From NCBI GenBank assembly GCA_913057515.1, contig CAJXOJ010000002.1, positions 1 to 64,000 on the forward strand: a stretch of DNA of 64,000 nt, given 5' to 3'. Positions 22,424 to 56,365 of the stretch are shown here, piece after piece. The position numbers and the translations under genes are program-made. Source of the DNA: an uncultured Cycloclasticus sp. (lineage in GTDB: Bacteria; Pseudomonadota; Gammaproteobacteria; Methylococcales; Cycloclasticaceae). Position 1 is the first letter of the stretch. Every line of letters starts with the position of its first letter. Under the pieces are notes generated by a model, which had not been told where the DNA came from, did no database searches, and worked only from the letters and a program-made list of their open reading frames with translations.

Positions 22424-23947
22424 TTACTCGCTAACTACAGGAATACCCGCTATTTTAGATTGCCACAAAGCCGGGCCTGTTTTATGTACAGACTCACCGT
22501 TTGAATCAACAGCAACGGTTACTGGCATATCTTCTACATAAAATTCTCTGATCGCTTCCATTCCTAAGTCTTCAAAAGCAATAATTTTAGAGCTTTTAAT
22601 CGCTTTGGATACGAGGTAAGCAGCGCCGCCAACAGCCATTAAGTAAGTCGCTTTGTGTTTTTTAATGGCTTTAATGCCGTCTGGACCGCGTTCAGCTTTA
22701 CCAATCATGCCTAACAGCCCCGTTTTATCTAGCATCATCTCGGTGAATTTATCCATTCGAGTCGCTGTTGTAGGGCCAGCGGGGCCAACCACTTCACCTG
22801 CAATAGGGTCGACCGGACCAACGTAGTATATAAAGCGATTTTTAAAGTCAACTCCGTCAGGCAAGGCCTCTCCTCGTGCAAACATATCGGCAATTCGTTT
22901 ATGTGCAGCATCGCGACCTGTAAGCATGTGGCCACTAAGTAGGAGGCGATCGCCTGGCTTCCAGGACTGAGCTTGTTCTTCTGTCACAGTATCTAAATTG
23001 ACATGTTTTGTTTGAGCATCGGGTGCCCAAGCAATATCTGGCCAGTCTTCAAGTTTTGGTGGCTCAATATATGATGGGCCAGAACCATCTAGAACAAAAT
23101 GCGCGTGACGGGTAGCAGCACAATTGGGAATCATTGCAACTGGTAAAGAAGCTGCGTGAGTTGGCATGTGGTTGATTTTTACATCTAACACGGTTGTTAA
23201 ACCACCAAGACCTTGAGCGCCTATGCCCAAGGCATTTACTTTTTCGTACAATTCTAAGCGAAGTTCTTCCGCACGATTGCTCGGACCTCGGTCTTTAAGT
23301 TCTTGAATGTCAATATGCTCCATTAACGATTCTTTGGCCAGTTTCATCGCCATTTCGGCAGTGCCGCCAACGCCAATGCCTAAAATACCTGGTGGGCACC
23401 AGCCAGCCCCCATGCTAGGGACTGTTTTTAATACCCAGTCTACGAGGCTATCGCTTGGGTTAAGCATGGCAAATTTAGACTTGTTCTCAGAGCCACCGCC
23501 TTTAGCGGCAACATGAATGCTAACGGTGTTACCTGGTACCATCTTCATGTGAACAACAGCAGGCGTGTTGTCCCCTGTGTTTTTTCTCGCACCTAATGGA
23601 TCGGTAACAATAGATGCCCTTAATACATTGTCGGGGTGTTGGTAGGCCTGTCTTACGCCTTCATTACACATTTCTTCAACACTCATAGTGCTGTCCCATT
23701 GAACATCCATGCCGATTTCTAAAAATAGGTTGGCGATGCCTGTATCCTGACAAATAGGGCGGTGATCCATCGCGCACATGCGTGAGTTGAGAAGAATTTG
23801 CGCCATGGCGTCTTTTGCAGCCGGAGACTCTTCTAACTCGTATGCTTGTCCTAACGCTTGAATATAGTCTTTGGGGTGATAATATGAAATAAATTGAAAG
23901 GCAGCAGCGACGCTTTCAATCAGGTCATTTTGTTTGATAATGGTCAT
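22424..23947 (-). CDS. Fumarate hydratase, class I (4Fe-4S)
   Basis: 507 aa; DHRPICQDTGIANLFLEIG, GAGWCPPGILGIGVGGTAE, GLGGLTTVLDVKI, GPTTATRMDKFTEMML. Confidence 0.94.
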   Translation of the reverse strand: MTIIKQNDLIESVAAAFQFISYYHPKDYIQALGQAYELEESPAAKDAMAQILLNSRMCAMDHRPICQDTGIANLFLEIGMDVQWDSTMSVEEMCNEGVRQAYQHPDNVLRASIVTDPLGARKNTGDNTPAVVHMKMVPGNTVSIHVAAKGGGSENKSKFAMLNPSDSLVDWVLKTVPSMGAGWCPPGILGIGVGGTAEMAMKLAKESLMEHIDIQELKDRGPSNRAEELRLELYEKVNALGIGAQGLGGLTTVLDVKINHMPTHAASLPVAMIPNCAATRHAHFVLDGSGPSYIEPPKLEDWPDIAWAPDAQTKHVNLDTVTEEQAQSWKPGDRLLLSGHMLTGRDAAHKRIADMFARGEALPDGVDFKNRFIYYVGPVDPIAGEVVGPAGPTTATRMDKFTEMMLDKTGLLGMIGKAERGPDGIKAIKKHKATYLMAVGGAAYLVSKAIKSSKIIAFEDLGMEAIREFYVEDMPVTVAVDSNGESVHKTGPALWQSKIAGIPVVSE

Positions 23948-23973
23948 TAAAAACTCGTATTTTTTATAAAATT

Positions 23974-26900
23974 TTATTGTAACAAAGAGATTGGGTATAC
24001 GTTATCAATTACCCTATTGAATAGAATTTTTTCAAACTCTTCGGTGGGCATAGGTTTGCCGAAATAATACCCTTGGGCGTAGTCACAGTTTAGGTCTTTA
24101 AGTTGGGCACTTTGTTCTTTTGTTTCAACGCCTTCAGCAATAACCTCTATTCCCAAACTATGCGCTAAAGCGATAATAGTGCGTACGATGTCAGCGTCTA
24201 CGTTATCATTTAGACTATTACTTATAAATGATCGGTCTATTTTTAATAGGTTGATGGGTAAGCGTTTTAAATAACTTAGAGAGGAGTAGCCAGTACCAAA
24301 ATCATCGATGGCAAGCTTGATTCCCAAGTTTTTGAGTGTGTCTAGTTTGTTAATGATTAGTTGTTCGTTATTCATAACAGAACTTTCTGTAATTTCTAAT
24401 TCAAGTAAATGATGTGGAAGTTGAGTTGCTTCTAAAATTGAAGAAATTTTATGGATAATATCATCATCCTCTAATTGAAGGGGTGATAAGTTTACAGCGA
24501 CTCTTATTGGTTTAGCGCCTTGATCAATCCATTTTTTTAAAGCGGAGCAGGCCGTTTCTAATACCCATTCGCCAATCATATGAATTTGCCCTGTCTCTTC
24601 GGCTAAACCGATAAAATCATTGGGAGGTATAAGCCCTTTTTCGGGATGTTGCCAGCGTATCAGGGCCTCCATACCGATTAATTCGCCAGTCGAGAAATCA
24701 AACTGTGGTTGATAAAAGACTTTTAACTCATCACGCAAAATAACATTGCGTAGCTCATTTTCAATTATTAAGCGTTGGTTAATACTCTCAGCCATTGAGT
24801 CATCAAAGAATACATAGGGAGCTTTAGTCTGCTTAGATAAATACATGGCAATATCTGCATTCTTTATTAGGTTACTAATATTGTCACCACTGGAGGGGAA
24901 GACACTGATTCCAATACTGGCATTGACATGCATTTCTTTTTCTAAGAACACAAAGGGTCTTGATAGGTTCTGTTGTATCTTACTTGCTAGGCTCTCAATG
25001 ATTTGATGTGACTTAACATCTGTTAAAGCAATCACAAACTCATCCCCGCCAAAGCGCGAAATAATATCTATTTCTCTAATACTTCTTGAAAGGCGCTCGG
25101 CAACAATTTTAAGTAATAAATCTCCTGCTTCATGGCCATAAGAGTCATTAACGAGCTTAAAACGATCTAAATCAAGGAAAATGATAGCCATAAGCTTGTG
25201 CTCTTGCTTATGTTTGATAATGAGCTCAGAGGTCTTTGTTGTAAATAAGGATCTATTCATTAAACCGGTTAAATGATCCTTGTGTGCTAAGTTGAATATT
25301 TGTTTTTCGGTTTGCTTAGTCGCTAGTAGTCGATTAACCCGATTAACAAACAGTGGTAAATTTAAGGGTTTTGAAAAGTAATCTAATGCACCAGCTTTGA
25401 ATGCATTGTTGATGGCAGTTTCACTATCAAAGTGAGATGTGATGATGAAGGGGGTATTATTTTCGGACAACTCTTGGCTAAGTTTTCTAAACTCATGATC
25501 ATCATCGGCTAACGTACCCTCTAAAATAACGATATCAGGTTTGTTACGTTTACAATATAGCCTTCCTTGATGGTTATTAATAACTTCGTCTACATTATGC
25601 CCTTTATCTTCTAAAGAATTCTTAACTAAAAAACGATTACTTTTATCAGCATCAATTAATAAAATTTTTGCAGGCTGATGATCATGAACTAATTCAGGTT
25701 TGTTAGCATCTATAGCCTTCACAATGGAAGAAACTTCTCGTATGGCTAACTCAGCTTCGAATAAAATAACTTTATGTTGGAGATTTAGAAACTTTACTTC
25801 ATCATCACTGGAGTTTTCCAATTTTTCACAAGCCTGAGAAAGGCGTAGAGCCGCAATGTTGAAAGCGTCTTTTTCTATTGAGCCTGCAATGAGTTTAATA
25901 TTGGGTCTATCGAGTTGCGAGACAGCACTTTTTAATTGAAACAAGGAGTTTGGGATTTCCTCTAAGAACGACTCTAGTACGGCGTTAAATTTATGACCAA
26001 GACTTTCTTGGTGTTTTAAATAAGACGCTTCATCTAAGACTGTTTTGATTAAGGTGTTTTTTTCAGGGTAGTCCTTTAAGGCATCTTGAGATATCCATTG
26101 TCGCAAAGTGGTTTTTAATGACGTCAATGTCAAAGGCTTTGCCATAAAGTCATCCATTCCTGCTGCTATACATTGTTCACGATCAGCTACTTGTTTATTC
26201 GCCGTTAGTGCGATGATAGGAGTATGAACATTGTGGTTTTCAAGTTCACGAATTTGAAAAGTTGTTTCATAACCATCCATTTCAGGCATTTGACAATCCA
26301 TCAAAATAAGGTCGAATGGTTGGGCGGAAAAAATTTCTAACGCTTCAAGACCATCATTAGCAAGCGTAACGGTACATTTGAATCGCTCTAACATGGCTTT
26401 TGCAACCAGCTGATTAGCGTTGTTATCTTCGACAACTAGAATGTTTTTAAATGGGTATTCGGGCAGCTGTTCTTTTGCCTCGTCTTGCTCAATCAGAGCG
26501 GGTGTTTTTGGTGCTGTTGATGTGTTGAAGTTGAAAATCAAATCTGATTGCTTTACAGGCTTGGTAATATGCCCAAAAACATTTAATCTTTTTATTGAGT
26601 GTAGGTAACTTGAGTTATTTGCAACCAACAGGATTATTTTTGTCTCGCTTAATGCATTATCTGCATTAATCATACGTACTAATGCGGTTTGGCTAAGGTT
26701 TGAGTGAAGTTTATCGATTAAAATGAAGTCGTAAGGTTTTTTTAGCGCTTTATATTGGCGTAACTTCTTTATAGCAGCTAGGCCATCATTGAGGAAGTCT
26801 ACAAAATAACTTAAGGATTCAAATTGTTGAGCGATAAAACGGTTAGAAAAATCATCATCACCTACATATAAAATATTAAGTAGGTTTGGTGCCGCTTTAT

Positions 26901-28422
26901 GTATTTTCGGGTTTAGTTCTGTGGCTTTTTTATCAATAATGAAATTTGCGGTAAACCAAAACGTACTGCCTTTTTCAACTTGACTATTGACACCCATTTC
27001 ACCACCAAAAATAGTAACCAGCTGTCGACTGATCGCCAAGCCAAGCCCTGTGCCTCCAAATTCCCTAGTGGTTGTGCTATCGGCTTGTGAGAAAGCATCG
27101 AATATTTTATTTTGAACTTCTTGAGGAATACCAATACCGGTATCTTTTACTTCAAAAAGCAAGGTGAGGCTATTTTCATGCTGTGAAGATATTGATGTAG
27201 TAATGCTCACTTCGCCAGCATGGGTGAACTTTATAGCATTACCCAGTAAGTTTTGTAAAATTTGTTGAAGTCTTAACTCATCTGCAATTAAGTGAGTAGG
27301 AACATTATTGTCTAGGAAATAAGCGATAGAAATATTTTTTCGCTGAGTTTGTGAGCTTAATAGGGTAATGGCATTCTCTAGGGTGTTACGTAAGTTAAAG
27401 GCGGTGTTGTTTAACGTAACATCATGCTGATGGTATTTAGAGAAGTCTAAAACATCATCGATTAAGCTGAGTAATGAGCTGGCGCTAGTAGAGGCGACCT
27501 TTAAATACTCTTGCTGTTGGCTGGTAAGCTTCATATCAGATAGGAGCTCTAACATACCTGAAATGCCATTTAAGGGAGTTCGCAACTCGTGACTAACATT
27601 AGCGGCAAATTCACTTTTAACTTTAGCGGCTTCAATAGCAAGATCGCGGGTTGTGAGGAGTTCTTTTTCTCTATTTTCAAGAATGTGCATCATGTCTGTA
27701 AATGCGCGTTCCATTCTTATAATGTCTTGTGTACTACCAATACTTTTTCGATCTGCTTTATTACCTTTTGCAGCATTAAGCATGTTCTCGGCAAGGTTGT
27801 CGATTGGTTTTGTAATACGTTTTGTAACCAGCAAAAGAGCCCATAATAAAAGCAAAGCTAAACTACCTATCACGATTAAATTATATTTATAAAAATCACT
27901 TTTAAGTGCAGCTAGTACATCTTTACTGACGACTAGGCGAACGTATCCTAATAACTTAGGTTCAAAATCAGTGTCGGAGTAAAGAAATGCTTCCTCATCC
28001 TGGGTACTAAAAACGGGCGTAGTGTATGTCCACTCGGACTCACTCTCATATTCTAATAAGGTCAATTCTATGGGGAGGGTGGTTGCGTGCTTTTCTAATA
28101 AGTCGCTACTTTGGTAAATCAACTGCATTTTATCATTATAAATACCAGCTGCTTTAACATCTGGAAAGGAAAGAATAGATTCCACGACTAATTTCGCTTC
28201 ATCTTGGCTGAGGTATAGCAGTGCAATCCGGCTGCTATTTGCAAATGACTCTACTAATTGGAGGCCAGTTTTCTTGAGGCTATCGTGAACACTGGTCGAA
28301 GATAAGTTTGAAGTGACGAGTGTTGCAGTGGTTATTAACAGCGTAATACCAATAAAATAAGTGGTAGTAAGTAGGTTTTTAAAACTACGATGAGTTAAAA
28401 AGTGGTACAGCTTTTTAATCAT
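23974..28422 (-). CDS. Giant hybrid sensor: TM/periplasmic region-HAMP-HisKA-HATPase-REC-like x2-Hpt-like-REC-like-GGDEF-EAL
   Basis: 1482 aa; FAANVSHELRTPLNGISGM (HisKA), GLGLAISRQLVTIFGG (HATPase), ILVVEDNNANQ...LILMDCQMPEMDGYE (REC), REIDIISRFGGDEF, GMEALIRWQHPEKG, AIDDFGTGYSSLSYLKRLPINLLKID. Confidence 0.93.
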   Translation of the reverse strand: MIKKLYHFLTHRSFKNLLTTTYFIGITLLITTATLVTSNLSSTSVHDSLKKTGLQLVESFANSSRIALLYLSQDEAKLVVESILSFPDVKAAGIYNDKMQLIYQSSDLLEKHATTLPIELTLLEYESESEWTYTTPVFSTQDEEAFLYSDTDFEPKLLGYVRLVVSKDVLAALKSDFYKYNLIVIGSLALLLLWALLLVTKRITKPIDNLAENMLNAAKGNKADRKSIGSTQDIIRMERAFTDMMHILENREKELLTTRDLAIEAAKVKSEFAANVSHELRTPLNGISGMLELLSDMKLTSQQQEYLKVASTSASSLLSLIDDVLDFSKYHQHDVTLNNTAFNLRNTLENAITLLSSQTQRKNISIAYFLDNNVPTHLIADELRLQQILQNLLGNAIKFTHAGEVSITTSISSQHENSLTLLFEVKDTGIGIPQEVQNKIFDAFSQADSTTTREFGGTGLGLAISRQLVTIFGGEMGVNSQVEKGSTFWFTANFIIDKKATELNPKIHKAAPNLLNILYVGDDDFSNRFIAQQFESLSYFVDFLNDGLAAIKKLRQYKALKKPYDFILIDKLHSNLSQTALVRMINADNALSETKIILLVANNSSYLHSIKRLNVFGHITKPVKQSDLIFNFNTSTAPKTPALIEQDEAKEQLPEYPFKNILVVEDNNANQLVAKAMLERFKCTVTLANDGLEALEIFSAQPFDLILMDCQMPEMDGYETTFQIRELENHNVHTPIIALTANKQVADREQCIAAGMDDFMAKPLTLTSLKTTLRQWISQDALKDYPEKNTLIKTVLDEASYLKHQESLGHKFNAVLESFLEEIPNSLFQLKSAVSQLDRPNIKLIAGSIEKDAFNIAALRLSQACEKLENSSDDEVKFLNLQHKVILFEAELAIREVSSIVKAIDANKPELVHDHQPAKILLIDADKSNRFLVKNSLEDKGHNVDEVINNHQGRLYCKRNKPDIVILEGTLADDDHEFRKLSQELSENNTPFIITSHFDSETAINNAFKAGALDYFSKPLNLPLFVNRVNRLLATKQTEKQIFNLAHKDHLTGLMNRSLFTTKTSELIIKHKQEHKLMAIIFLDLDRFKLVNDSYGHEAGDLLLKIVAERLSRSIREIDIISRFGGDEFVIALTDVKSHQIIESLASKIQQNLSRPFVFLEKEMHVNASIGISVFPSSGDNISNLIKNADIAMYLSKQTKAPYVFFDDSMAESINQRLIIENELRNVILRDELKVFYQPQFDFSTGELIGMEALIRWQHPEKGLIPPNDFIGLAEETGQIHMIGEWVLETACSALKKWIDQGAKPIRVAVNLSPLQLEDDDIIHKISSILEATQLPHHLLELEITESSVMNNEQLIINKLDTLKNLGIKLAIDDFGTGYSSLSYLKRLPINLLKIDRSFISNSLNDNVDADIVRTIIALAHSLGIEVIAEGVETKEQSAQLKDLNCDYAQGYYFGKPMPTEEFEKILFNRVIDNVYPISLLQ

Positions 28423-29380
28423 TTGCTACACCTTTGGGATATGTCAAAGCAAAGTTAGTTTTTTTGGTTAAATGAATGGTGTTTGACAAATGCTTGGCAG
28501 TCCTAAGGTTAGCAACGACCAGCGTTGATTGCATGGGTGTAATGTTTGCTTTTCCACCATTCAATAGGCGAATGACTGTGAGGGCTAAGTCTTTCCCAAT
28601 TTGTTGATTATCTGGAAGTATTGATAAAAGGGCGCCTCGACGAACATGCGACGGATTACTAGATATTACAACTTGTTTATATTTCCAAGCATCAGATAAA
28701 ACCCGAGGTAGTAAGCTTTTATTGTCTAATGTTGGATCGTGATGTAGAAGCCATAAAGCATCCTCGGTAGGGTTACTATTACGGACAATTTCTTTATATT
28801 TTAAGGCCGCTTGTTGTAAGTTAGATACTTTATGAGGGATGATCGTAAGACCATTTTTAGCAGTGCTTTCAATCGCTCTTTGTACTAACCAGCCATTAGC
28901 CGTTGGGTCAAATACAACATGAATTTCCTTAATGCTTGGTTGGATTTTTTTTAATTCTGCAAAAAGCAGAGCAGGGTCTGGGTTCATCGAGACACCACTA
29001 TGGCCTTTTTTTATGTCCTGACCTGACAGAAATAATGCACCATGAACCGTTTTAAATGATGTGGCGATTTTCTCTTGAAGGGGAATGTTTTCCCTGCCAA
29101 GTAGGATGACAGCGTCGGGGTTAGTTTTTTGTAAAGAGAGCAGGAGTTCCTCTTCATCTAATGATTTATCAAAGGTTAGTGCTTGAATATTAAGTTGAGG
29201 TTGCTCTTTAATGCCGTTGATAATGGCATCGAAAAATGTGCTGTAGGGCTTTCTTGCCTCAGGGTATAAAACAGTGATATTGAATGTGGCATTAGCCCGT
29301 AGATCATCATCCGCGATAGTACTGGTACAAAAAAGCAGCACTAGCATTAGAGCGCCATAAAATTTTTTAAAGTATGCCAT
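28415..29380 (-). CDS. ABC-transporter substrate-binding-like protein (PF04392 type), overlapping the sensor gene
   Basis: 321 aa with signal peptide (MAYFKKFYGALMLVLLFCTSTIADD); LYPEARKPYSTFFDAIINGI, DAVILLGRENIP, KEIHVVFDPTANGWLVQRA, SNPSHVRRGALLSILPDNQQIGKDLA. ATGATTAA stop/start overlap with the downstream kinase gene. Confidence 0.8.
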   Translation of the reverse strand: MAYFKKFYGALMLVLLFCTSTIADDDLRANATFNITVLYPEARKPYSTFFDAIINGIKEQPQLNIQALTFDKSLDEEELLLSLQKTNPDAVILLGRENIPLQEKIATSFKTVHGALFLSGQDIKKGHSGVSMNPDPALLFAELKKIQPSIKEIHVVFDPTANGWLVQRAIESTAKNGLTIIPHKVSNLQQAALKYKEIVRNSNPTEDALWLLHHDPTLDNKSLLPRVLSDAWKYKQVVISSNPSHVRRGALLSILPDNQQIGKDLALTVIRLLNGGKANITPMQSTLVVANLRTAKHLSNTIHLTKKTNFALTYPKGVAND

Positions 29381-31558: not shown

Positions 31559-32359
31559 TTACCAGCTTCTTGTTTCTTGCCCAGTATAATTCAGTCGTTG
31601 ACAGCTTAATGGAAAAAAACTGCCTTCTTTTTTATTCACTGAATCTATATAACAAGGGATGATGCCAGCTGTAAAAGCGATTATTGAGCAGTAGTAATGC
31701 TCTTCAATACTTAATCCTAAATCGGCTAGTAAAGCAGCAGTCAGTGCTGCAGAATTCATACGCATACGATATTTTTTTTGGATCAAAAAATTTTCTATGT
31801 TTTGTGCGGTTTTTAGGTGAATTCCATCAGAAAGCTTTAGTGCAGAAGCTTTTTTAAGTAATGGTTTTATACGCTCATCATGCTGGGCAATAGGACGACC
31901 ATAACCTGGGATGACGCGTTTTAGTTTTAATTCACTTCTAATTATTTCTGACAGAGAGCCACCAGAATTTTCGACGCGTGTGGCGCGTCTGATAAATGCA
32001 CTTGCCTGAAAACCAACCTGATTTCCATAAGTGTTAGCCTCGGACACTGCGATTGCAGATGAAACGCCAAGTATACCAGTAGAATTGGCTGTGCCAGCTA
32101 GAGCGGCCACGCGGTTATTCCAAATTCTTGGGTCTGGATAACTAATGGTTAGTGACCAGATGGCCTGTATTAGCTCTATGTGCTTATCAGGCAGCAGTCT
32201 ACCAGTTACTCCAAACATTAAGTACTTGAACCAGTTTAAATCATTAAGTTCAGTGAATAAGTCCTTTCCTCGTAAAACAACGCGTTCACCGGGAAAGGCT
32301 GCGCCCATTTCAGTATGCCAATTGTCTTCAGCTTGCTCTAATGTTGATGGACCTTTCAT
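31559..32359 (-). CDS. Citrate-synthase-fold protein, divergent subunit B
   Basis: 266 aa; YPDPRIWNNRVAALAGTANSTGILGVSSAIAVSEANTYGNQ, PGYGRPIAQHDERIKPLL (aligned by eye to CS PGFGHPLYxxxDPRA), AAGIIP-like C-terminal region ending RLNYTG. Confidence 0.68.
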   Translation of the reverse strand: MKGPSTLEQAEDNWHTEMGAAFPGERVVLRGKDLFTELNDLNWFKYLMFGVTGRLLPDKHIELIQAIWSLTISYPDPRIWNNRVAALAGTANSTGILGVSSAIAVSEANTYGNQVGFQASAFIRRATRVENSGGSLSEIIRSELKLKRVIPGYGRPIAQHDERIKPLLKKASALKLSDGIHLKTAQNIENFLIQKKYRMRMNSAALTAALLADLGLSIEEHYYCSIIAFTAGIIPCYIDSVNKKEGSFFPLSCQRLNYTGQETRSW

Positions 32360-32367
32360 AATATGCT

Positions 32368-33183
32368 TCAGGTGGATTGGTTGGAGGATTTAGGGCCAGG
32401 GTCATTGGCAAGTGTTAGCTTATTTCCAAAGAACGGATATTTTCGCCATCCCAGTTTTTTTTGTTCAAGAGTATGAACGGCAGCGCCTGGTAATCGTAAC
32501 AACAAAAATAGCATTTCAGCTTGTTCGTCAGTGAAATCTAAATCGGTAAATGCAGCAGCAATAACACCTGTCATGCTTAATGGACAATCAGCTGCTTGCT
32601 CAAATTCCGTTCGGTTAGTTGATAAGTAGGCAAGCGCCCCTTCGGGATAAATCGTTGTTAAGTGATTTAGTGTTTGTAAAACGGGTGTGGCGCAACTGGC
32701 CCCATACGGATCAAAGCCTGGTGTATGTTCACTGCGAGGCCAAACCTCAACGTCCGCTTCATCTTGATAGTCAGATAAGTTTTGCTGCCAAAGGGTAAGA
32801 TCAAACTGACATTGCTGCCATAAGCGCATGACTTGATAAACCTCTCTTGCGCCACCATTTTTACCAGCACCTGGGGCTAAGGCAGCCATTAAGCAAGAGG
32901 CTGCTGTTGAACCACCAACACCGCCATTCATGGCAGCACGTACACTTAAATCGCGTGGGCCTGGGTTAGCAATGGCAATGGCAATGGTTTCTAGCAATTT
33001 AGACTGCCAGGGTTGAGGTTTTTCTAATTTAAAGAGTAAATAAATATATTCCGACCAAGAGATTTTGCCCAATAAGTCGCCATAAACATCGTAACCGGAA
33101 CAATATGAGGTTTTTGCAGCAAAGGGGTTGTCGGGCTCTTCTTCTTCAAGCCATATTTTGGTAGTAATTTTTTCTTTCTGCAT
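32368..33183 (-). CDS. Citrate-synthase / citryl-CoA lyase-fold protein, divergent subunit A
   Basis: 271 aa; GYDVYGDLLGKISWSEYIYLLF, NPGPRDLSVRAAMNGGVGGSTAASCLMAALAPGAGKNGGA, LLLRLPGAAVHTLEQKK resemble citrate synthase / citryl-CoA lyase motifs. Confidence 0.72.
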   Translation of the reverse strand: MQKEKITTKIWLEEEEPDNPFAAKTSYCSGYDVYGDLLGKISWSEYIYLLFKLEKPQPWQSKLLETIAIAIANPGPRDLSVRAAMNGGVGGSTAASCLMAALAPGAGKNGGAREVYQVMRLWQQCQFDLTLWQQNLSDYQDEADVEVWPRSEHTPGFDPYGASCATPVLQTLNHLTTIYPEGALAYLSTNRTEFEQAADCPLSMTGVIAAAFTDLDFTDEQAEMLFLLLRLPGAAVHTLEQKKLGWRKYPFFGNKLTLANDPGPKSSNQST

Positions 33184-33185
33184 GA

Positions 33186-34937
33186 TTACTTTAGACCTTT
33201 CAGTCGTGTTGCAATAGGGGGGATCTCTTCTGCATCGATTCTTATATCGAGAAGTGTTGGACCGTTACGATTACACATTTGAGCAATATCTAGGTTGAGT
33301 AGCTCATTGGCTGTTTCAACAGTTTGGCTTGCAATACCCATGGCTGAAGCCATTAATGCATAGCTAATATTTGGTAATTTATTAGCAATATCAGCAGATT
33401 TATTTAACAGTTGGCCGTGTTTGACCATACCCAAGTGTTGATCATTCATAATGAGGAAAATAATATTAAGATTTTCTTGTAGTGCAACGGTAATTTCGTT
33501 TCCTGACATTAGAAAGCTTCCATCTCCCACAATACAAATTATAGGGTCATTAGGGTGAGCTAGTGCTGTGCCAATGGCACTACCGACAGACCAACCCATT
33601 GAACAGAATTCAGCGCAGATTTGTATTAGATCAGTGTTACCTGAGTGCCTATCGCTAGGATTTAGGTAATGAATAGCCCATGCTAGGTTATTGCCTGTGT
33701 CAGCTAAGTAACGTGCGTTAGCTGGAAAAACTTGGGTTAATTGAGTCATGAGATACTGCGGCTTTAAAGGGCTTGATGCATCAGTGGTTTTAGCTGGTTC
33801 ATCAAATTCAAAATAAAGAAATTTATTGTCCTCAGTTAGTGTCTTGGCGGGAGTTTCTTTTTTATCTTTTACTAGAGTACTACAGTTGTCTAAAACGGCT
33901 TCTAAAATAGTAGGAATATGACCACCTACTTGAAGTTTAGCCATAGAGGATCGAGTAAAGTTCTCTTGATTACTGTCAATATGGATGAGTTTGTTATTAA
34001 GTAGGGATAATTGATCCCAGGCATTGCTGGTGAACTCACCTAAAGCAGAACCAATAACAACAATGGTATCTACAGTATCCTGTTGAAGAGCCTTGCTCGC
34101 ACTTTTATGCCCAGCAAAGCCGATTACTCCACGGTATGAAGGATGATTAGGGTTGATGAACCCTTTGCCATCCGGCGTAGCAACAAATTCGATACCCATT
34201 TTATTTATACAGTCCGCCAATAAGTCACTGCAATTTTTTGCGCCTGCGCCGACGACAAAGATGGTTTTTTTTGAATTATTTAATTCCGTTAATAAGTCTT
34301 GTATAGCATTTTCATCTTTTAAAACGGGGTGTCTTATTACATTTGCTATATTAATTGGCTGTTGATTGATGGGAATAGTGCTTTTTAAAATATCGTTTGG
34401 AATACTTAGGTGTGTAGGGCCAGGTGGTGAGCTAAAAGCCGACATAATGGCGGAGACAAGCTTATGCTCAAATTGTTCAACATGCGTGATATAACTACTG
34501 TATTTGGTGAACAATTGAAAAATACTGGTAATATCTATTCCGGTATCACCAGACTCTTGCATGGCCTTTTTGCCTACTTTATCTTGAGCAGTTTGCGGCG
34601 TGATAATTAGTAATGGTGTGTTGTTTTCGTAGGAGGAGGCAATACCGGTAATCATATTGGTAGCGCCAGGCCCAGTTGTAGAGCAGCACACGCCCAGCTT
34701 ACCTGTATTTCTTGCGTATGCATCGGCCATAAAAACGGCTCCAGTTTCATGCCTTGCGGTGATGGCTCGAATGCCGCCACGCTTTTCACTTTTAGCTAAG
34801 GCGTTATAAAGAGGCTCTATAGCACCGCCAGGAATACCAAAAATAAACTCGACACCTATCTTTTCTAAATAATGGAGTAGGAGGTCACAGCTAGCTATTT
34901 CACTTTGTGGGTTAAATTTTGGAGGGGTGTCACTCAT
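33186..34937 (-). CDS. Thiamine-diphosphate-dependent enzyme, acetolactate-synthase-like
   Basis: 583 aa; FGIPGGAIEPLYNAL, ITARHETGAVFMADAYAR (catalytic Glu), STTGPGATNMITGIASSYENNTPLLIITPQ, GDGSFLMSGNEITVALQENLNIIFLIMND (ThDP-binding motif). Confidence 0.9.
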   Translation of the reverse strand: MSDTPPKFNPQSEIASCDLLLHYLEKIGVEFIFGIPGGAIEPLYNALAKSEKRGGIRAITARHETGAVFMADAYARNTGKLGVCCSTTGPGATNMITGIASSYENNTPLLIITPQTAQDKVGKKAMQESGDTGIDITSIFQLFTKYSSYITHVEQFEHKLVSAIMSAFSSPPGPTHLSIPNDILKSTIPINQQPINIANVIRHPVLKDENAIQDLLTELNNSKKTIFVVGAGAKNCSDLLADCINKMGIEFVATPDGKGFINPNHPSYRGVIGFAGHKSASKALQQDTVDTIVVIGSALGEFTSNAWDQLSLLNNKLIHIDSNQENFTRSSMAKLQVGGHIPTILEAVLDNCSTLVKDKKETPAKTLTEDNKFLYFEFDEPAKTTDASSPLKPQYLMTQLTQVFPANARYLADTGNNLAWAIHYLNPSDRHSGNTDLIQICAEFCSMGWSVGSAIGTALAHPNDPIICIVGDGSFLMSGNEITVALQENLNIIFLIMNDQHLGMVKHGQLLNKSADIANKLPNISYALMASAMGIASQTVETANELLNLDIAQMCNRNGPTLLDIRIDAEEIPPIATRLKGLK

Positions 34938-34970
34938 GTTGCCTCATAATAGGGGTTGATTTTAAAATAT

Positions 34971-34999
34971 CTATATAAAACAGTGGCTTAATTTGTCAA
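34971..34999 (-). promoter_or_regulatory. Putative sigma-70 promoter for the ThDP/citrate-synthase-like operon
   Basis: Minus strand TTGACA (34999-34994), 16-nt spacer, TATATA (34977-34972), about 35 nt upstream of the ATG at 34937. Confidence 0.6.
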
Positions 35000-35097
35000 C
35001 CTAAATCAACCTATTAGCTTATTCAAAATTAATCGAATTCGATCCTTTTGTAAAGAGCTTCTATTTTAAAAAATGGTTTTTTAAAATTTATATATAA

Positions 35098-35180
35098 AAG
35101 TAAGGAATACTCACTTAATCAATCATCGGGTGTTCTGTAAAATCAACGATATCTGATTAACGTCGAGGTATTCCTTACTT
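35098..35180. repeat. Long interrupted inverted repeat in the lpd downstream intergenic region
   Basis: AAGTAAGGAATAC (35098-35110) / GTATTCCTTACTT (35168-35180), with a nested TTAATCA...TGATTAA pair inside. Confidence 0.8.
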
Positions 35181-35194
35181 GAGGAAAGAGCACT

Positions 35195-35230
35195 CAACCC
35201 TATGGCACATAGACTTGTGTAATAGGGTTG
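35195..35230. repeat. Second hairpin in the same intergenic region
   Basis: CAACCCTAT-gg-CACA-tagact-TGTG-ta-ATAGGGTTG; outer 9-bp perfect arms plus inner 4-bp arms. Confidence 0.8.
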
Positions 35231-35292
35231 TTCAAGATATTCCTCTCTATTAGCAATAACTGGGGAGGATCTATTCTTGATGGGGTGGCTAA

Positions 35293-47088: not shown

Positions 47089-48360
47089 ATGTCATTTCGT
47101 ACATCACTTAGTGGTTTAGATGCTGCTTCAAATGATCTTTCTGTTGTCGGCAACAATATTGCTAATGCCGCAACAACGGGGTTTAAAGGTTCACGTGCAG
47201 AATTTGTAGATGTGTTTGCAACAACGTTTTCAGGGGTCTCTGGTAATACTCCGGGCAGTGGTGTCCGTGTAGCATCGGTTTCACAGCAGTTTGGACAAGG
47301 GAATATCGAGTTTACTGCGAGCAACTTGGATATGGCCATTAATGGTGAAGGTTTCTTTATTGTTAACGATGATGGAACAGATAGCTACACCCGTGCTGGA
47401 GCGTTTTCAACGGACAGAGAAGGCTTCGTTATTGATAATTCGGGTCGTAACTTACAAGTATTTCCTGCAAATAGTAATGGGTCTTTCAATACGGGTACTC
47501 TTCAGTCACTACAATTGACCACCACTGATTCTCCGCCTAGAGCTACGACGAGTCTTACTCCTATCATAAACTTAAACGCTAATGAGGTGGTTCCACTCAA
47601 TGCTTTTGACCCAGTCGACGCAGACACATATAACCATTCGACGTCAACAACAGTTTATGATTCGCAAGGTAATGGCTTTCCAGCAACCATGTATTATGTG
47701 GCAAGCAACCCAGCAGCTAACGAATGGCAAGCGTACACCATCGTAGATGGAAATACGTTGACAATGACAGAGCCGGCAGGAACGACCGGACTTCCTGTTG
47801 ATTTCTTTACGTTGACCTTTAACGGGGATGGTAGCTTAGCGAGTACAACGATTGATGGTGTGGCTGATACTACACGCCAAGTTCCTTTTAATGGTTTGAC
47901 TTTGGGTAATGGAACTGACCCCATGGCGCTGACATTTGACTATGCGGATATCACTCAATACGGTGGTGACTTTTCAATTTACTCTTTAAATCAAGATGGT
48001 TTTTCATCAGGTCGTTTAAGTGGTATTGATATTGATCAAAATGGTGCTGTTTTCGCTCGCTTTACCAATGGACAATCCGATTTGTTAGGGCAGGTTGCCT
48101 TGGCATCCTTTCCAAATTCTGGGGGGTTAAACCAACTGGGTTCAACCTCTTGGGGCGAAACGTTCAGTTCAGGTGACCGGATTATTGGCTCTCCAACGAG
48201 CTCAGGATTTGGTGCGCTACAGTCGGGTGCGTTAGAAGCTTCTAATGTTGATATTGCCTCTCAACTGGTTAACTTAATTACCTCGCAACGTAATTTCCAG
48301 GCTAACGCAAAAGCGATAACAACGGAAGATACCATTCAGCAAGCTATTTTGAATATTTAG
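47089..48360 (+). CDS. flgE: Flagellar hook protein FlgE
   Basis: 423 aa; SFRTSLSGLDAASNDLSVVGNNIANAATTGFKGSRAEF; C-terminal LVNLITSQRNFQANAKAI. Confidence 0.95.
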   Translation: MSFRTSLSGLDAASNDLSVVGNNIANAATTGFKGSRAEFVDVFATTFSGVSGNTPGSGVRVASVSQQFGQGNIEFTASNLDMAINGEGFFIVNDDGTDSYTRAGAFSTDREGFVIDNSGRNLQVFPANSNGSFNTGTLQSLQLTTTDSPPRATTSLTPIINLNANEVVPLNAFDPVDADTYNHSTSTTVYDSQGNGFPATMYYVASNPAANEWQAYTIVDGNTLTMTEPAGTTGLPVDFFTLTFNGDGSLASTTIDGVADTTRQVPFNGLTLGNGTDPMALTFDYADITQYGGDFSIYSLNQDGFSSGRLSGIDIDQNGAVFARFTNGQSDLLGQVALASFPNSGGLNQLGSTSWGETFSSGDRIIGSPTSSGFGALQSGALEASNVDIASQLVNLITSQRNFQANAKAITTEDTIQQAILNI

Positions 48361-48386
48361 TTGTTTAGTTAATAAAAGGAGCTGTC

Positions 48387-49127
48387 ATGGATACTAGTTT
48401 ATACGTTGCAATGAGTGGAGCTAAACAAATATTGTTAGCACAATCTGCCAACTCCCATAATTTGGCGAACGTCAATACCACAGGGTTTAAAGCTGATTTA
48501 TCACAATTTAGAAGTATGCCTGTCTATGGCCCTGGGCACCCTTCGAGTGTATATGCGATGGCAGAACGTCCTGGTATTGATTTTGATTTAGGCACAGTGC
48601 AGCAAACAGGGCGTGAATTAGATGTCTCTATTAGTGGAGAAGGTTGGATTTCTGTAGCAGCGGCTGATGGTGGCGAAGCCTATACAAGAGCCGGAGATTT
48701 ACGGGTAACGCCAGATGGTTTATTGACCACGGGGACAGGTTTGCCGGTACTGGGCGAGAGCGGATTAATGAGTATTCCTGAAGTCGAAAAAATAGAAGTG
48801 GGTGCCGATGGAACGATTAGCGTTATTCCCCTAGGTGCAACTTCAACAGAACTGTTAGTAGTTGACAGAATTAAATTAGTGAACCCAGAGCGTGGCGAGT
48901 TAATAAAAGGTAATGATGGCCTTTTTAGAATGAAAAATGGGGCTGAAGCAGATTCAAGTGCTGATGTTTCGCTGGTTAGTGGTGCCGTTGAAGGCAGTAA
49001 TGTGAGTGTGGTAGATGCCATGGTGAATATGATTGAGTTATCAAGAAGTTTTGAGATGCAAGTAAAAGTAATGAAAACAGCCAGCGAAAATGAAGCGGCT
49101 AGTGCAAAGTTAATGAGCTTAGGATAG
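48387..49127 (+). CDS. flgF: Flagellar basal-body rod protein FlgF
   Basis: 246 aa; [33 protein letters not shown]. Confidence 0.94.
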   Translation: MDTSLYVAMSGAKQILLAQSANSHNLANVNTTGFKADLSQFRSMPVYGPGHPSSVYAMAERPGIDFDLGTVQQTGRELDVSISGEGWISVAAADGGEAYTRAGDLRVTPDGLLTTGTGLPVLGESGLMSIPEVEKIEVGADGTISVIPLGATSTELLVVDRIKLVNPERGELIKGNDGLFRMKNGAEADSSADVSLVSGAVEGSNVSVVDAMVNMIELSRSFEMQVKVMKTASENEAASAKLMSLG

Positions 49128-49136
49128 GGGAAAACG

Positions 49137-49925
49137 ATGTCAACACAAGCAATGTGGATTAGTAAAACAGGCTTAGAAGCCCAACAAACAAGAATGGCGG
49201 TTATCTCGAATAACTTGGCCAACGTCAACACCACTGGGTTCAAAAAATCACGTGCGATATTTGAAGACTTGCTATATCAAAATGTTCGTCAAGTAGGCGC
49301 GCAGAGTTCGCAAAATACTGAGTTACCAACGGGCTTACAAATTGGCACGGGTGTTCGTACCGTCGCCACCGAGAAACATCATACTCAAGGAACTATCCAG
49401 CAAACAGGGCAGTCCTTGGATATATCAGTTTCAGGACGTGGTTTCTTTCAAATATTACGCCCAGATGGTGACATCTCTTATACCCGTGACGGTAGCTTTA
49501 AGCTCGACTCAAGCGGGCAACTAGTAACCTCTGGCGGTTACCCTTTAGAACCATCCATTACCATCCCAGAGGATTCATTAAGTGTAACAATTGGTGTGGA
49601 TGGAACAGTGAGTGTTTTACAACCTGGCAGTGGTACACCATCACTGGTGGGTAATATCACTTTGGCAGATTTTGTTAACCCAACGGGGCTTGACCCTATT
49701 GGTGAAAACCAGTTTAGAGAATCGTTGTCTAGTGGCACACCAACGGTGGGAACACCGGGTGAAACGGGCGTGGGTTTAATTAGTCAAGGCTCTTTAGAAA
49801 CCTCAAACGTAAACGTTGTAGAGGAAATGGTCAGCATGATCGAAACTCAACGTGCCTATGAAATGAATTCAAAAGCGATTTCAACTTCTGACCAAATGAT
49901 GCAAGGATTAATTCAGGCCTTATAG
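49137..49925 (+). CDS. flgG: Flagellar basal-body rod protein FlgG
   Basis: 262 aa; [62 protein letters not shown]. Confidence 0.96.
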
Positions 49926-49934
49926 GTGATTTAC

Positions 49935-50615
49935 ATGAAAAAACTTAATCTATTGATTTTGCCGTTCATATTGCCAGGTTGCGCGATGATGGACAATATG
50001 GCCAAACCAAGGCACGACGTAGAGTATGCGCCAGCTAAACCTATGTCATACCAAGTGCCGCAAAGTCATAACGGGTCAATTTATCAAGCTGGTTATGAAG
50101 TTAGTTTATTTGAAGACATTAGAGCACGTAGAATTGGCGATATTCTAATTATTAACTTGGTAGAAAAGACCGATGCCAAAAAAGAATCAGACACGGATAT
50201 CAAAAAAGGCACTACGACAAATATAGCGGCGCCAACCGTATTAGGTATGCTCGACCCTTCATTAAAAGGGCTTAACTTAAACAGTGCGTTAAGTTCATCA
50301 AATGATTTTGCTGGCGAAACGGAAAGTACACAGAAAAATAGCCTAAGCGGGAGTATTACTGTCAGCGTTGTAGATGTTCTTCCAAACGGTTATTTAAGAA
50401 TACGCGGTGAAAAACGTGTTCGCCTTAACCAGGGGAATGAATATATAAGAGTGTCTGGTATTATCCGCCCAACCGACATTAACCCCGATAACTCGGTTGA
50501 ATCTACAAAAATTGCCGATGCAACCATTATGTATACAGGCGAAGGTGCGCTAGCGGATGCTAACAAAATTGGTTGGTTAGCTCGTTTCTTTATTAGCGCA
50601 GTATTCCCGTTCTAA
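49935..50615 (+). CDS. flgH: Flagellar L-ring lipoprotein FlgH
   Basis: Lipobox-like [68 protein letters not shown] 49935 preferred over GTG 49926. Confidence 0.94.
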
Positions 50616-50625
50616 GGAGTTTATT

Positions 50626-51738
50626 ATGAATATGAAATCCCTTATATTAATGGTAGTTTTAGGCTTAATGCAAAGCACTGCCTATGCCGAACGCATAAAA
50701 GATATTGCTTCTATAACAGGTGTTCGCGCTAACCAGCTGGTGGGCTATGGTATTGTCGTTGGCCTAAATGGCACAGGTGATAAGGTTAAAGCAGGTGATT
50801 TTACTTCGCAAAGCATGCGCAGTATGTTGAGTCAAATGGGGGTTAAAATACCCGCAACGGTTCAAGTTAAATCTAAAAATATTGCTGCGGTAATTATTCA
50901 TGCAAGCCTTCCACCGTTTGCCAGCCCTGGGCAAAAAATTAATGTAACCGTTAACGCCATTGGTGAAGCCAGTAGTTTACGCGGTGGTAGTTTACTCATG
51001 TCACCACTAAAAGGTGCTGATGGTAAAGTCTACGGCATAGCCCAAGGTAACTTGGTGGTGGGTGGTTTAAGCGCATCAGGTGCCGATGGCTCCAAAGTGA
51101 GTGTTAATATTCCAACGGTTGGTAGTATTCCAAATGGTGCAACGGTTGAACGGACAGTGTATAGCCCCTTTAATGAAGGCACAACGTTAACACTTAATTT
51201 GCACACCTTTGACTTTACAACAGCTAACCGACTCGCTAATTCAATTAACCAAGCGATTGGACCGCAAACCTCGCATTCAATTAACGGTGGCAGTATTAAG
51301 GTGAATATGCCGCGTGACCCAGCGCAAAGGGTAGCATTTATGTCCTTGCTAGAAAATTTAGAAGTGCAACCCGCACAATCTGCGGCGCGTATTATTATTA
51401 ACTCAAGAACCGGTACCGTGGTTATTAACAATCAGGTAAAAGTACGTGCAGCAGCGGTATCGCATGGAAATTTAACAGTCACAATTACCGAAAGACAGAA
51501 CGTTAGCCAACCGGACGCAGGTGGCGCTTTTTCAGAAGGTGAAACGGTGGTAACGCCAGAGTCAGAAATAAATATAGTGGCTGAAGATAGTCGCATGTTT
51601 GTATTTGACCCAGGTGTCTCGCTCGATCAAATCGTTAAAGCCGTTAACCAAGTAGGGGCAGGGCCCAGTGATTTAGTGGCTATCTTAGAAGCACTAAAAG
51701 GTGCAGGCGCTTTAACCGCAGAGTTAATCGTCATTTAG
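50626..51738 (+). CDS. flgI: Flagellar P-ring protein FlgI
   Basis: 370 aa; [32 protein letters not shown]; ending [14 protein letters not shown]. Confidence 0.96.
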
Positions 51739-51740
51739 TA

Positions 51741-52709
51741 ATGAATTACTCAGTCTCACAAGCCGATATCTATGCCGATTTTAATGGGCTTGCTCAATTA
51801 AAAGCAAAAGCCAGTGGTGATAATAACGAACAGCAAAATGCGCTGGGTGAAGTAGCGCGTCAATTTGAGACTATTTTTCTGAAAATGATGCTGAAAAGTA
51901 TGCGCGATACCGTGCCCGAGTCAGGCCTTGTTAATAATGACAAGACGCGTTTTTATGAGTCTATGTATGATGACCAAATATCCTTAGATTTAAGTAAACG
52001 GGGTGATTTAGGCTTGGCGCAGATGATTGTTAATCAAATGGGTGAATCAGGTGCTCCCAAAACTAATAGAACCTTTGATGGTTTAGCTAGTTATCGGCAA
52101 ACAGCTGTTCAGCAAAAAGCCCCACATACTCCTCACGAACGGGTGGAATTACCCCGCGTGATCGCTGGTACGAAACCGCTTAGTACGGGTATAAACTCTA
52201 TTGAAGAGTTTGTTAATACCTTAATTGAGCCCGCCAAAAATGCCGCCAAGGCGCTAGGTGTTGATGCGCAAGTGCTGCTCGCGCAATCCGCCTTAGAAAC
52301 GGGATGGGGTAAGCACATCATGAAGGATCAAACTGGGCAAAGTAGCCATAATATGTTTGGTATAAAAGCATCACGTGGCTGGCAGGGTAAAACGGTCAAT
52401 GTGCAAACGGTTGAATATGAAGCAGGCATAGCACAAAAGCGTCAGGCGACATTTCGTGCCTATGATAACTATGAAGACAGTTTTAATGATTACGTGCAGT
52501 TTTTAAAACAAAATCCGCGTTATGCAGAAACCCTATCTAAAGTTGATTCTAATGAAGCGTTTGTAAAAGGTTTGCAAAAAGCAGGTTACGCAACAGACCC
52601 CGCCTACGCGAAAAAAATTATGTCCATCCTAGGGCGTGAACAATTGTCATCAATTGAAAGACCTTCAGTAAATTTAACTCAAGCCGATACAAGGCTTATA
52701 GGGGGTTAA
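51741..52709 (+). CDS. flgJ: Flagellar rod-assembly protein / peptidoglycan hydrolase FlgJ
   Basis: N-terminal rod-binding domain (QFETIFLKMMLKSMRDTVPESGL) plus C-terminal glucosaminidase domain (LAQSALETGWGKHIM). Confidence 0.95.
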   Translation: MNYSVSQADIYADFNGLAQLKAKASGDNNEQQNALGEVARQFETIFLKMMLKSMRDTVPESGLVNNDKTRFYESMYDDQISLDLSKRGDLGLAQMIVNQMGESGAPKTNRTFDGLASYRQTAVQQKAPHTPHERVELPRVIAGTKPLSTGINSIEEFVNTLIEPAKNAAKALGVDAQVLLAQSALETGWGKHIMKDQTGQSSHNMFGIKASRGWQGKTVNVQTVEYEAGIAQKRQATFRAYDNYEDSFNDYVQFLKQNPRYAETLSKVDSNEAFVKGLQKAGYATDPAYAKKIMSILGREQLSSIERPSVNLTQADTRLIGG

Positions 52710-52743
52710 GTGAATAAAGGGCAAACGATAGCGAGTAAACATC

Positions 52744-54672
52744 ATGGCTGATCTATTATTAACCGGCTTATCGGGTTTAACGGCATTTAAAAACGTATTG
52801 ACCACAACGGGTCACAATATTACTAATGCCACAACCGAAGGCTATAGTCGTCAAAAGGTTAGTTTAGAAACACAAACGCCACAGTTTAGTGGGGCTGGAT
52901 ACGTTGGGTCGGGCGTTTTTACATCATCAATCACTCGTCAATACGATAGTTTTTTGTCCACAGAATTTAGAAATAGCAATTCAGCAGCGTCAGAGTTAGA
53001 CACTTATTATGAATTCGCCAGTCAAATTGACTCTGTGTTGGCAAACCCAACAGTGGGGTTAAGTGGAGCCTTACAAGAGTTTTTTAACTCAATTCAAGAT
53101 GTTGCTGCAGATCCTTCCTCAATTCCAGCTAGGCAAGTTATGCTGTCTGAGGGCGAAGCGCTAGAAAACCGTTTTAGCACCATGGATAACCTGTTTGATG
53201 ATATTACCCTTCGGGTGAATAACCGCCTGGCTGATACGGTAACAGATATCAATTTATTATCTGAGAATATTGCGAGCATAAATCAAAAAATTGTTGATGC
53301 GGCTGGTAAAGGGCAAATGCCCAATGACTTGTTGGATCAACGAGATCACCTAATTGATCAGCTTGCTTCCAAAGTTAACGTGAGCACCAGTGTGCAAACG
53401 GATGGAGCGGTTAATGTGTTTGTGGGTAGTGGTCAGTCTTTAGTGTTGGGCTCTCGTAGTAACCAGCTCGGACTAGAACCAGCGGGCTTTGATGCAAGCG
53501 CATTAACCATAGTCTTCAAAGAGCAAACCGCTAATGTGGATATTACGAGGTTTATGACCGGTGGAGAAATGGGCGGCATCGTTAGGTTTAGAGATGAAGT
53601 GCTCAACCCATCAATCAATACGTTGGGGCAAATAGCCGTTTCATTATCACACACATTTAATGAGCAACATATCAATGGTGTGGACCTAAATGGCGATCAA
53701 GGCCAAGGTTTTTTCTCTAAGCCGGGTGTCCTTATTGCGAGTGATGTCTCTAACACAGGCTCTTTAACGGTTAATTATGCCGCTGATATTTCACAATTAA
53801 CCACAAGTGACTATGTGCTGACGACCGATGCAACCAACACAAACTACACGCTGACACGGTTAACCGATAACACGCAGACGACCGCGGCTATTCCGGGTGC
53901 CCCGGGTATTATTACAGTGGATGGTTTAGAGATAGATTTAAGTGCTACCGCGGCAGCGGATGAATATAGAATTCGTCCCACACGAGATGGCGCATCAAGC
54001 TTTTCATTAAAAACGACTGACCCACGGGATATTGCTATTGGGATGCCGGTCGTTAGCAGGGCAACATCCACTAACACAGGCACAGCTAGTTTAACTGAAT
54101 TAAGTATGTCGTCTTATACTGGTGTAAGCCTTGCGGATACCAGCTTAACTTACGACAGTGCTAATGCCCAATACGATATTGTAGTGGGTGGAGTCTCTAG
54201 TGGTACATTAGCTTATGATGCTGGTACTGACAGTGGTAAAACAGTGAGCGTTGCTATAGCAGGTTTTGGTGATGTTAGCTTTGTTTTAAACGGTCAGCCT
54301 GAAGATGGCGATAGTTTTATCCTAAATGATAATGCTGCAAGCAATTTCAGCGTGGGTGATAATAGAAACGCCTTGGCTTTATCAGGCTTGCAAACCACGC
54401 AAACCATGGTAGACGGTAGCGCAAGCTACCAAGATGCGTATGGCCAAATTGTGGCTGATGTGGGGCGTAAAACAAGATCAGCAGAAGTGAATGGTGCTGC
54501 ACAGCAAGGGTTTTTAAACCAAGCAATAGCAGCAAAAGATTCGGTAAGTGGGGTTAACTTAGATGAAGAAGCAGCGAATCTTGTGCGTTTTCAACAAGCA
54601 TATCAAGCAGCTAGCCAAGTGGTGCTAACCTCACGTACCATTTTTGACACCTTACTAGGAGCCTTTAGATAA
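52744..54672 (+). CDS. flgK: Flagellar hook-associated protein FlgK (HAP1)
   Basis: 642 aa; LLTGLSGLTAFKNVLTTTGHNITNATTEGYSRQKVSLETQ; VNLDEEAANLVRFQQAYQAASQVVLTSRTIFDTLL. Confidence 0.95.
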   Translation: MADLLLTGLSGLTAFKNVLTTTGHNITNATTEGYSRQKVSLETQTPQFSGAGYVGSGVFTSSITRQYDSFLSTEFRNSNSAASELDTYYEFASQIDSVLANPTVGLSGALQEFFNSIQDVAADPSSIPARQVMLSEGEALENRFSTMDNLFDDITLRVNNRLADTVTDINLLSENIASINQKIVDAAGKGQMPNDLLDQRDHLIDQLASKVNVSTSVQTDGAVNVFVGSGQSLVLGSRSNQLGLEPAGFDASALTIVFKEQTANVDITRFMTGGEMGGIVRFRDEVLNPSINTLGQIAVSLSHTFNEQHINGVDLNGDQGQGFFSKPGVLIASDVSNTGSLTVNYAADISQLTTSDYVLTTDATNTNYTLTRLTDNTQTTAAIPGAPGIITVDGLEIDLSATAAADEYRIRPTRDGASSFSLKTTDPRDIAIGMPVVSRATSTNTGTASLTELSMSSYTGVSLADTSLTYDSANAQYDIVVGGVSSGTLAYDAGTDSGKTVSVAIAGFGDVSFVLNGQPEDGDSFILNDNAASNFSVGDNRNALALSGLQTTQTMVDGSASYQDAYGQIVADVGRKTRSAEVNGAAQQGFLNQAIAAKDSVSGVNLDEEAANLVRFQQAYQAASQVVLTSRTIFDTLLGAFR

Positions 54673-54673
54673 C

Positions 54674-55969: not shown

Positions 55970-56246
55970 AAAACGACAATACGACACGCACCCCAAGCTA
56001 CAAAGTACATCTCAATCAGCTAGCAAGGAAAACCATTAGTTAGGCAGACGCATAAAGCGCAATACGCTAAAGCCCAAAGATAACGACAGGGTGATGGTGT
56101 GAGATGGATGTTGATTGTTGAGCTTACAAGGTCCAGCCCAGCTGAGGCAGAAACTTAATCTAATGAAAAGAAGGCGGATTGATATCTTGTAATTTGTGAT
56201 GCACGTCATAATTCTCTGCCTGTTTAAAAAACTTTTAAATAAACGC

Positions 56247-56273
56247 TAAAGGAAACTTTCTGAAGGCCGATAA
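56247..56273 (+). promoter_or_regulatory. Sigma-28 (FliA) promoter for fliC
   Basis: TAAA-ggaaactttctgaag(15)-GCCGATAA, an exact match to the TAAA-N15-GCCGATAA consensus, about 90 nt upstream of the fliC ATG. Confidence 0.88.
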
Positions 56274-56365
56274 GCTAATCGGAGACGGTAAATACCTAGC
56301 TAGACTAAAAGATATATCCGTCAGTTTTAAATAAGGTAAGCGTTGGCTTACAAAGGAGCAATAAA

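Follow-up and report, generated by a model that had tools for sequence, protein, structure and literature searches.

In the furanolide (cyanobacterin) pathway, the thiamine diphosphate (ThDP) enzyme CybE makes an acyloin (PMC13288894), and CybF, a ketoacyl synthase III (KAS III), joins the acyloin to an acyl-coenzyme A (acyl-CoA), forming a butenolide (PMC8777810). CsmA has been described as a CybE homologue, and the products of CybE-type enzymes are alpha-hydroxy-beta-keto acids (PMC12395478); BpmA, as printed in that report, is presumably the BbmA of the Protein Data Bank (PDB). We examined a 64,000-nucleotide stretch of DNA from an uncultured Cycloclasticus sp. (assembly GCA_913057515.1, contig CAJXOJ010000002.1, positions 1 to 64,000; the window), in which a ThDP enzyme and two citryl-CoA-lyase-fold proteins, subunits A and B, are encoded side by side. 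This trio is half of a six-gene unit that also encodes a TonB-dependent receptor, a periplasmic substrate-binding protein (PBP) and a hybrid histidine kinase. We consider, with a probability of about 0.55, that the unit is self-contained and both makes and senses a small diffusible molecule. Periplasmic proteins working with hybrid kinases are known from LuxP-LuxQ and TorT-TorS, and NspS-MbaA works on cyclic di-GMP (c-di-GMP).

The window resembles the CybE/CybF pathway in that a putative acyloin synthase of the ThDP class, to which the CybE homologues CsmA and BbmA belong, stands beside a candidate acyl-CoA-using partner. Two citryl-CoA-lyase-fold proteins make up this partner, whereas KAS III was found in the unit only at one relative locus, L134, which pairs the ThDP enzyme with KAS III in the manner of CybE and CybF. 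Unlike that pathway, the window operon has its own receptor and sensor, and neither an ammonia lyase nor a CoA ligase is present in the unit. The likeness to LuxP-LuxQ, TorT-TorS and NspS-MbaA lies in a PBP gene beside a membrane hybrid kinase and in a putative phosphorelay or c-di-GMP output; in contrast to these systems, the window PBP belongs to the ABC_sub_bind family, the kinase is fused with receivers, GGDEF and EAL, and TonB receptor and synthase genes are included in the unit. Tundrenone of Methylobacter was considered as a match and rejected, as its paper mentions neither acetolactate synthase nor citrate synthase genes.

A first-pass annotation of the same DNA had described an uncharacterised three-gene module of minus-strand open reading frames (ORFs). 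The frames, the gaps of 2 bp (ThDP to A) and 8 bp (A to B) and the quoted motifs, namely RHETGA and GDGS...N in the ThDP enzyme, KNGGA and GFDPYG in A, and PGYGRPI in B, were all confirmed. The trio is thus real; what did not stand was its treatment as a stand-alone module, for the conserved unit runs past 31559 to 23974 and includes the receptor, PBP and kinase genes. The features are as follows.

33186..34937, minus strand: ThDP-dependent acyloin-synthase-like enzyme, 583 aa
32368..33183, minus strand: subunit A, citryl-CoA-lyase-fold protein without the catalytic His/His/Asp, 271 aa
31559..32359, minus strand: subunit B, citryl-CoA-lyase-fold protein with an invariant Arg155 replacing the catalytic His, 266 aa
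29441..31501, minus strand: TonB-dependent outer-membrane receptor, 686 aa (Pfam Plug and TonB_dep_Rec)
28415..29380, minus strand: PBP, ABC_sub_bind, 321 aa (Pfam PF04392)
23974..28422, minus strand: hybrid histidine kinase, HisKA-HATPase-receivers-GGDEF-EAL, 1482 aa (Pfam domains)
34938..35292, no strand: intergenic region between lpd and the ThDP gene, upstream boundary of the block and probable site of its promoter (empty-site comparison with six congeners)
23948..23973, no strand: downstream edge of the block, adjoining fumarase (empty-site comparison)
22424-23947: fumarase (Pfam matches)

The extent of the unit was defined by comparison within the genus. Six congeneric genomes lack the block and have fumarase directly after lpd, and the carriers have the whole block exactly between these two genes. 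Hence, the 11 kb block is gained or lost in one piece. Upstream of the ThDP gene, matches to consensus promoters were promoter-like and not above chance.

The grouping of the ThDP enzyme, A and B is more than chance, because the three frames are open and show conservation, with 81-89% identity for A in congeners, and because the ThDP and B genes adjoin A in nearly all of 69 A-containing loci. A genome-neighbourhood check, which the first-pass annotation had proposed, bore out this co-occurrence: homologues of B were present within 10 kb of A in 67 loci, of the ThDP enzyme in 65, of the histidine kinase in 56, of the TonB receptor in 54 and of the PBP in 45, where one contig was counted twice, many absences are contig ends, and the kinase count is inflated because kinases are common. 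Among 274 Gammaproteobacteria, 30 genomes carry A and 37 the PBP, with 26 carrying the two together (Fisher p=1e-23, with genome kinship ignored). Named genomes, when scanned, yielded 21 loci among beta- and gammaproteobacteria, the carriers including Collimonas, Dechloromonas, Roseateles, Albitalea, Noviherbaspirillum, Rhodoferax, Gallionella and metagenome-assembled genomes of Methylococcaceae. The full set of six gene types recurs in further families and classes, rearranged in order and strand; four loci of another class (L068, L069, L073 and L075; A and B at ~30-38% identity) have all six in a changed order. No relative was found in viral contigs, and plasmids yielded only distant single-subunit citryl-CoA lyase relatives, most of which have intact catalytic residues.

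Next, the ThDP enzyme was compared with known families. The protein has three TPP domains in Pfam, and its catalytic Glu64 and GDG...N motif are invariant among 18 aligned homologues. It shares the superfamily, the catalytic Glu and the ThDP motif with acetohydroxyacid synthase (AHAS, IlvB), whereas its score lies under all NCBIfam acetolactate synthase cutoffs (308-310 vs 509-538 bits), including the curated AHAS cutoff (308.1 vs 538.35 bits), and no regulatory subunit gene adjoins it. Among enzymes with solved structures it is closest to the CybE homologues, the top PDB matches being BbmA (301 bits) and CsmA (263 bits), followed by AHAS (223 bits); the ThDP enzyme of L134 is likewise closest to BbmA/CsmA, ahead of AHAS. 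By these similarities its nearest relatives are acyloin synthases, rather than enzymes of oxalyl-CoA or formyl-CoA, two of the substrates that had been suggested for its assay.

One explanation of the trio would be an ordinary acetolactate synthase next to an ordinary citrate or methylcitrate synthase. Only superfamily membership speaks for it, and we reject it as extremely improbable: all family cutoffs are missed, the catalytic residues of the citrate synthase type are absent, and genuine copies are encoded elsewhere in the genome, namely a true IlvB (873 bits vs the 538 cutoff) and two full citrate synthases. The earlier view that the trio is no obvious stand-in for a step of the TCA cycle is consistent with these copies. 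A third citrate-synthase-family match (G000:C26:26341-26925) is a 262 aa open frame covering profile positions 152-349 only, and is unlinked to the trio.

Both small proteins had been assigned to the citrate synthase / citryl-CoA lyase fold, and profile searches and structure models agree with this assignment. Their best NCBIfam scores (48-54 bits) did not meet the citryl-CoA lyase and citrate synthase family cutoffs (193-409), the matches to citryl-CoA lyase being below cutoff at 1.6e-14 for A and 9.5e-13 for B; the Pfam citrate synthase match of A was sub-threshold (13.9 vs 27), and B had none. The solved citryl-CoA lyase 6hxp was the best match of both profiles (hmmsearch 6e-10 for A and 5e-11 for B) and the best Foldseek match of both AlphaFold models (A, 2.3e-8, model confidence pLDDT 83; B, 4.3e-9, pLDDT 72, which is moderate). 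A and B are closer to citryl-CoA lyase than to citrate synthase. A solid case can be made for the citryl-CoA-lyase core of A, and a fair one for that of B.

Active sites were compared by aligning A, B and relatives with five annotated, plasmid-borne citryl-CoA lyases. The DVHGGA His, the GFGH His and the NIDG Asp correspond to N, P and T in A; in B the three positions read Y, R and A or S. The lyase residues are retained by four of the five plasmid enzymes, the exception being the one from Martelella, which departs at two of the three positions. In this alignment the usual catalytic residues are gone from both A and B, as had been read from the window, and new residues are fixed instead; it showed no catalytic His or Asp elsewhere in either protein. 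Arg155 of B, which takes the place of the GFGH His, is invariant, as is GxGRP...DER among gamma- and betaproteobacterial B. Compared with citryl-CoA lyase (PRK06224) and the citryl-CoA lyase core of ACLY, A and B have a similar fold and size, the following DxR arginine being kept in B and a HxxEQ segment near the C-terminus in A, whereas they lack the catalytic His/His/Asp, have an invariant Arg for His in B, and are two distinct, almost always co-encoded proteins. H153 of A, which is nearly invariant in A, was considered as a substitute for the GFGH His and rejected, as it is not kept in distant A groups.

A heteromeric A/B complex had also been proposed. This fits the almost constant co-encoding of the two proteins in the surveyed loci, and A and B probably form a heteromer. 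Within the genus, the distances of B are out of step with those of other genes (r=-0.55 with ThDP), which suggests exchange of B between strains.

The loss of all three catalytic residues in both proteins raises the alternative that A and B are no enzymes and serve the ThDP enzyme as a scaffold or as regulators; the signal, for example an acyloin, would then be made by that enzyme by itself. In agreement with this, L133, a single-contig genome, has the ThDP, methyltransferase, TonB, PBP and kinase genes without A/B. On the other hand, within the genus A evolves more slowly than any other protein of the unit (mean difference 16% vs 22-45% for the others; B 38%, PBP 45%), the old active-site positions hold new invariant residues, and KAS III is able to fill the A/B slot in L134. 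We thus regard a mere scaffold or regulatory role as distinctly unlikely.

The most informative evidence came from loci in which modules are swapped. In L138 and L140, A, B and the TonB receptor are accompanied by a YfiR-like protein (DUF4154) and a CHASE8-HAMP-PAS-GGDEF-EAL protein; this module, like YfiR-YfiN in c-di-GMP signalling, stands in the place of the PBP-kinase pair, whereas it is absent from the window. In L071, L072 and L074, the trio is followed by a kinase-AAA-GAF-histidine kinase of 1727-1771 aa and a LuxR-type response regulator (domain scan: L071). Conversely, L134 has ThDP, KAS III, TonB, PBP and histidine kinase genes, and A/B were found in neither its contig nor a search of its genome. 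Tailoring genes also occur inside operons, encoding a short-chain dehydrogenase/reductase (SDR; L039, L044, L045 and L049), an O-methyltransferase (L027 and L038) or, as noted above, a methyltransferase (L133), and an acyl-CoA-ligase-like ORF adjoins L051. Thus, the biosynthetic core is paired with unrelated sensors, and one sensor type is paired with variant biosynthetic enzymes. The repeated presence of unrelated sensors beside the same enzymes suggests that the product of the enzymes is what is sensed. Furthermore, because KAS III occupies the A/B slot in L134, the swap suggests that A/B does a CybF-like acyl-CoA step with another fold; from this one locus and the logic of the fold, A/B may act on acyl-CoA.

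The giant Ser/Thr kinase-AAA-GAF-histidine kinase and LuxR-type regulator genes lie at L071:11391-17200, L072:2013-7969 and L074:11825-17658, with FkbH-like, methyltransferase or MaoC-like genes nearby.

The sensory half of the unit was then considered. The PBP gene directly adjoins the kinase gene, a pairing repeated in most loci, and this PBP is the sole strong PF04392 match of the genome. The kinase carries receivers in three stretches, then GGDEF and EAL (Pfam), with intact motifs RFGGDEF at 1125, MEAL at 1252 and DDFGTG at 1373. In other genomes its domains are divided between two proteins, a kinase linked to the PBP and a receiver-GGDEF-EAL protein. No inner-membrane transporter, ABC permease or ATPase was recognised beside the PBP, where the neighbours were judged from ORFs, part of them domain-scanned. 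The PBP is presumed to be a sensor rather than part of a transporter, given that the unit has no recognised ABC permease or exporter. More than one TonB receptor match stands beside the trio in L141, L150, L189 and L194.

An importer, a sensor and enzymes are also the usual layout of a catabolic unit, in which the TonB receptor would import an environmental compound, the PBP and kinase would sense it, and A/B, as a retro-aldol enzyme or lyase, would degrade it with the ThDP enzyme. The genus may degrade hydrocarbons, plasmid citryl-CoA lyase relatives adjoin CoA transferases and in Azoarcus sp. KH32C also a ThDP enzyme, and the metabolism of polycyclic aromatic hydrocarbons in Cycloclasticus is under c-di-GMP control (PMC8547461), all of which count for this explanation. 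Against it, an inner-membrane transporter was not recognised in the unit, the methyltransferases, SDR and KAS III resemble biosynthetic tailoring or condensing enzymes, the nearest solved ThDP enzymes are carboligases, and the lyase residues kept by most of the plasmid enzymes are missing from A and B. Catabolism is accordingly judged unlikely. On the Azoarcus plasmid pAZKH (L162), the single-subunit relative has intact catalytic residues and lies between the CoA transferase and the ThDP enzyme; this arrangement is possibly a catabolic relative of the trio.

Chelation of metals, of which acyloin and hydroxy-enone products are capable, would suit a metallophore unit, with the TonB receptor conserved beside the trio. 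In such a unit, a small chelator would be the product of the trio, its metal complex would enter through the receptor, and metal status would be reported by the PBP and kinase. What makes this explanation rather improbable is that the unit has no recognised ABC metal importer or exporter, that c-di-GMP or a LuxR-type regulator serves as output in place of a Fur-like or extracytoplasmic function system, and that the trio loci L070-L072 and L074 have no TonB homologue.

For the make-and-sense unit that we prefer, the following route is proposed by analogy with CybE. The ThDP enzyme would join two alpha-keto acids into an alpha-hydroxy-beta-keto acid, and the A/B heteromer, a CoA-binding fold without lyase residues, would join this acyloin acid to an acyl-CoA; what results would resemble a butenolide or furanone. 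Optional SDR and methyltransferases may tailor the product, which would exit the cell and be returned to the periplasm by the TonB receptor. The PBP would bind it and dock on the hybrid kinase, and the kinase would relay to its own GGDEF-EAL domains, changing c-di-GMP synthesis or breakdown. The genes, their domains and the conserved unit, present or absent as one block, are observed directly; we infer the product class, the A/B chemistry, the ligand and the direction of the c-di-GMP change. A central-carbon role on C1, acetate or propionate, some of the carbon sources first proposed for testing the trio, gives way to this proposal, since the six-gene unit points to making and sensing a small molecule.

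Several points weigh against this proposal. A quorum-sensing signal does not usually involve a TonB receptor, and no exporter gene was recognised in the six-gene unit. A/B may have lost CoA binding altogether. The replacement of A/B by KAS III was seen in one locus, L134, of a fragmented genome with 6% estimated contamination; a class search for further KAS III-type loci gave only FabH-level matches of ~30-38% identity. In the gammaproteobacterial survey, the PBP occurred without A in 11 of 37 genomes, and A without the PBP in 4 of 30. Within the genus, the species tree accounts for the strong correlation of ThDP distances with those of the PBP and kinase (sucA r=0.94 and 0.93). Signal-receptor co-evolution by distance correlation was therefore rejected as evidence: the ThDP-PBP r of 0.90 within the genus fell to a partial r of 0.20 (p=0.17) when sucA was controlled for. 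The wider partial correlation (0.77 given A and TonB) has no species-tree control.

We propose, more tentatively, a widespread signalling family in which a CybE-type ThDP carboligase and an obligate rewired citrate-synthase-fold pair condensing acyl-CoA may be combined with TonB recapture, PBP-kinase sensing and c-di-GMP output. If this is true, synthase, receptor and output of a signalling family lie in one 11 kb block, and its carriers range from relatives of methanotrophs to numerous beta- and gammaproteobacteria (Collimonas, Dechloromonas, Roseateles and Gallionella relatives). The citrate synthase fold would also gain a reaction beyond citrate chemistry, and acyloin/butenolide biosynthesis would be tied to c-di-GMP control. 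Each part comes from a known superfamily; the combination, and the paired rewired citrate-synthase fold in it, appear new. Searches of open-access papers yielded no description of this unit or of any signalling or biosynthetic operon with ThDP and citrate-synthase-like genes.

Two further observations were made. A second partial copy of the unit (the end of A, B and TonB) is present in the window's assembly at G000:C88 (L031:1-3189); over its full length it is 84% DNA-identical to the L019 locus of another species of the genus, and is either assembly contamination or a second operon. Elsewhere in the window, 47089-58261 contains flagellar hook, ring and flagellin genes, with two different flagellin-domain proteins of 431 and 631 aa.

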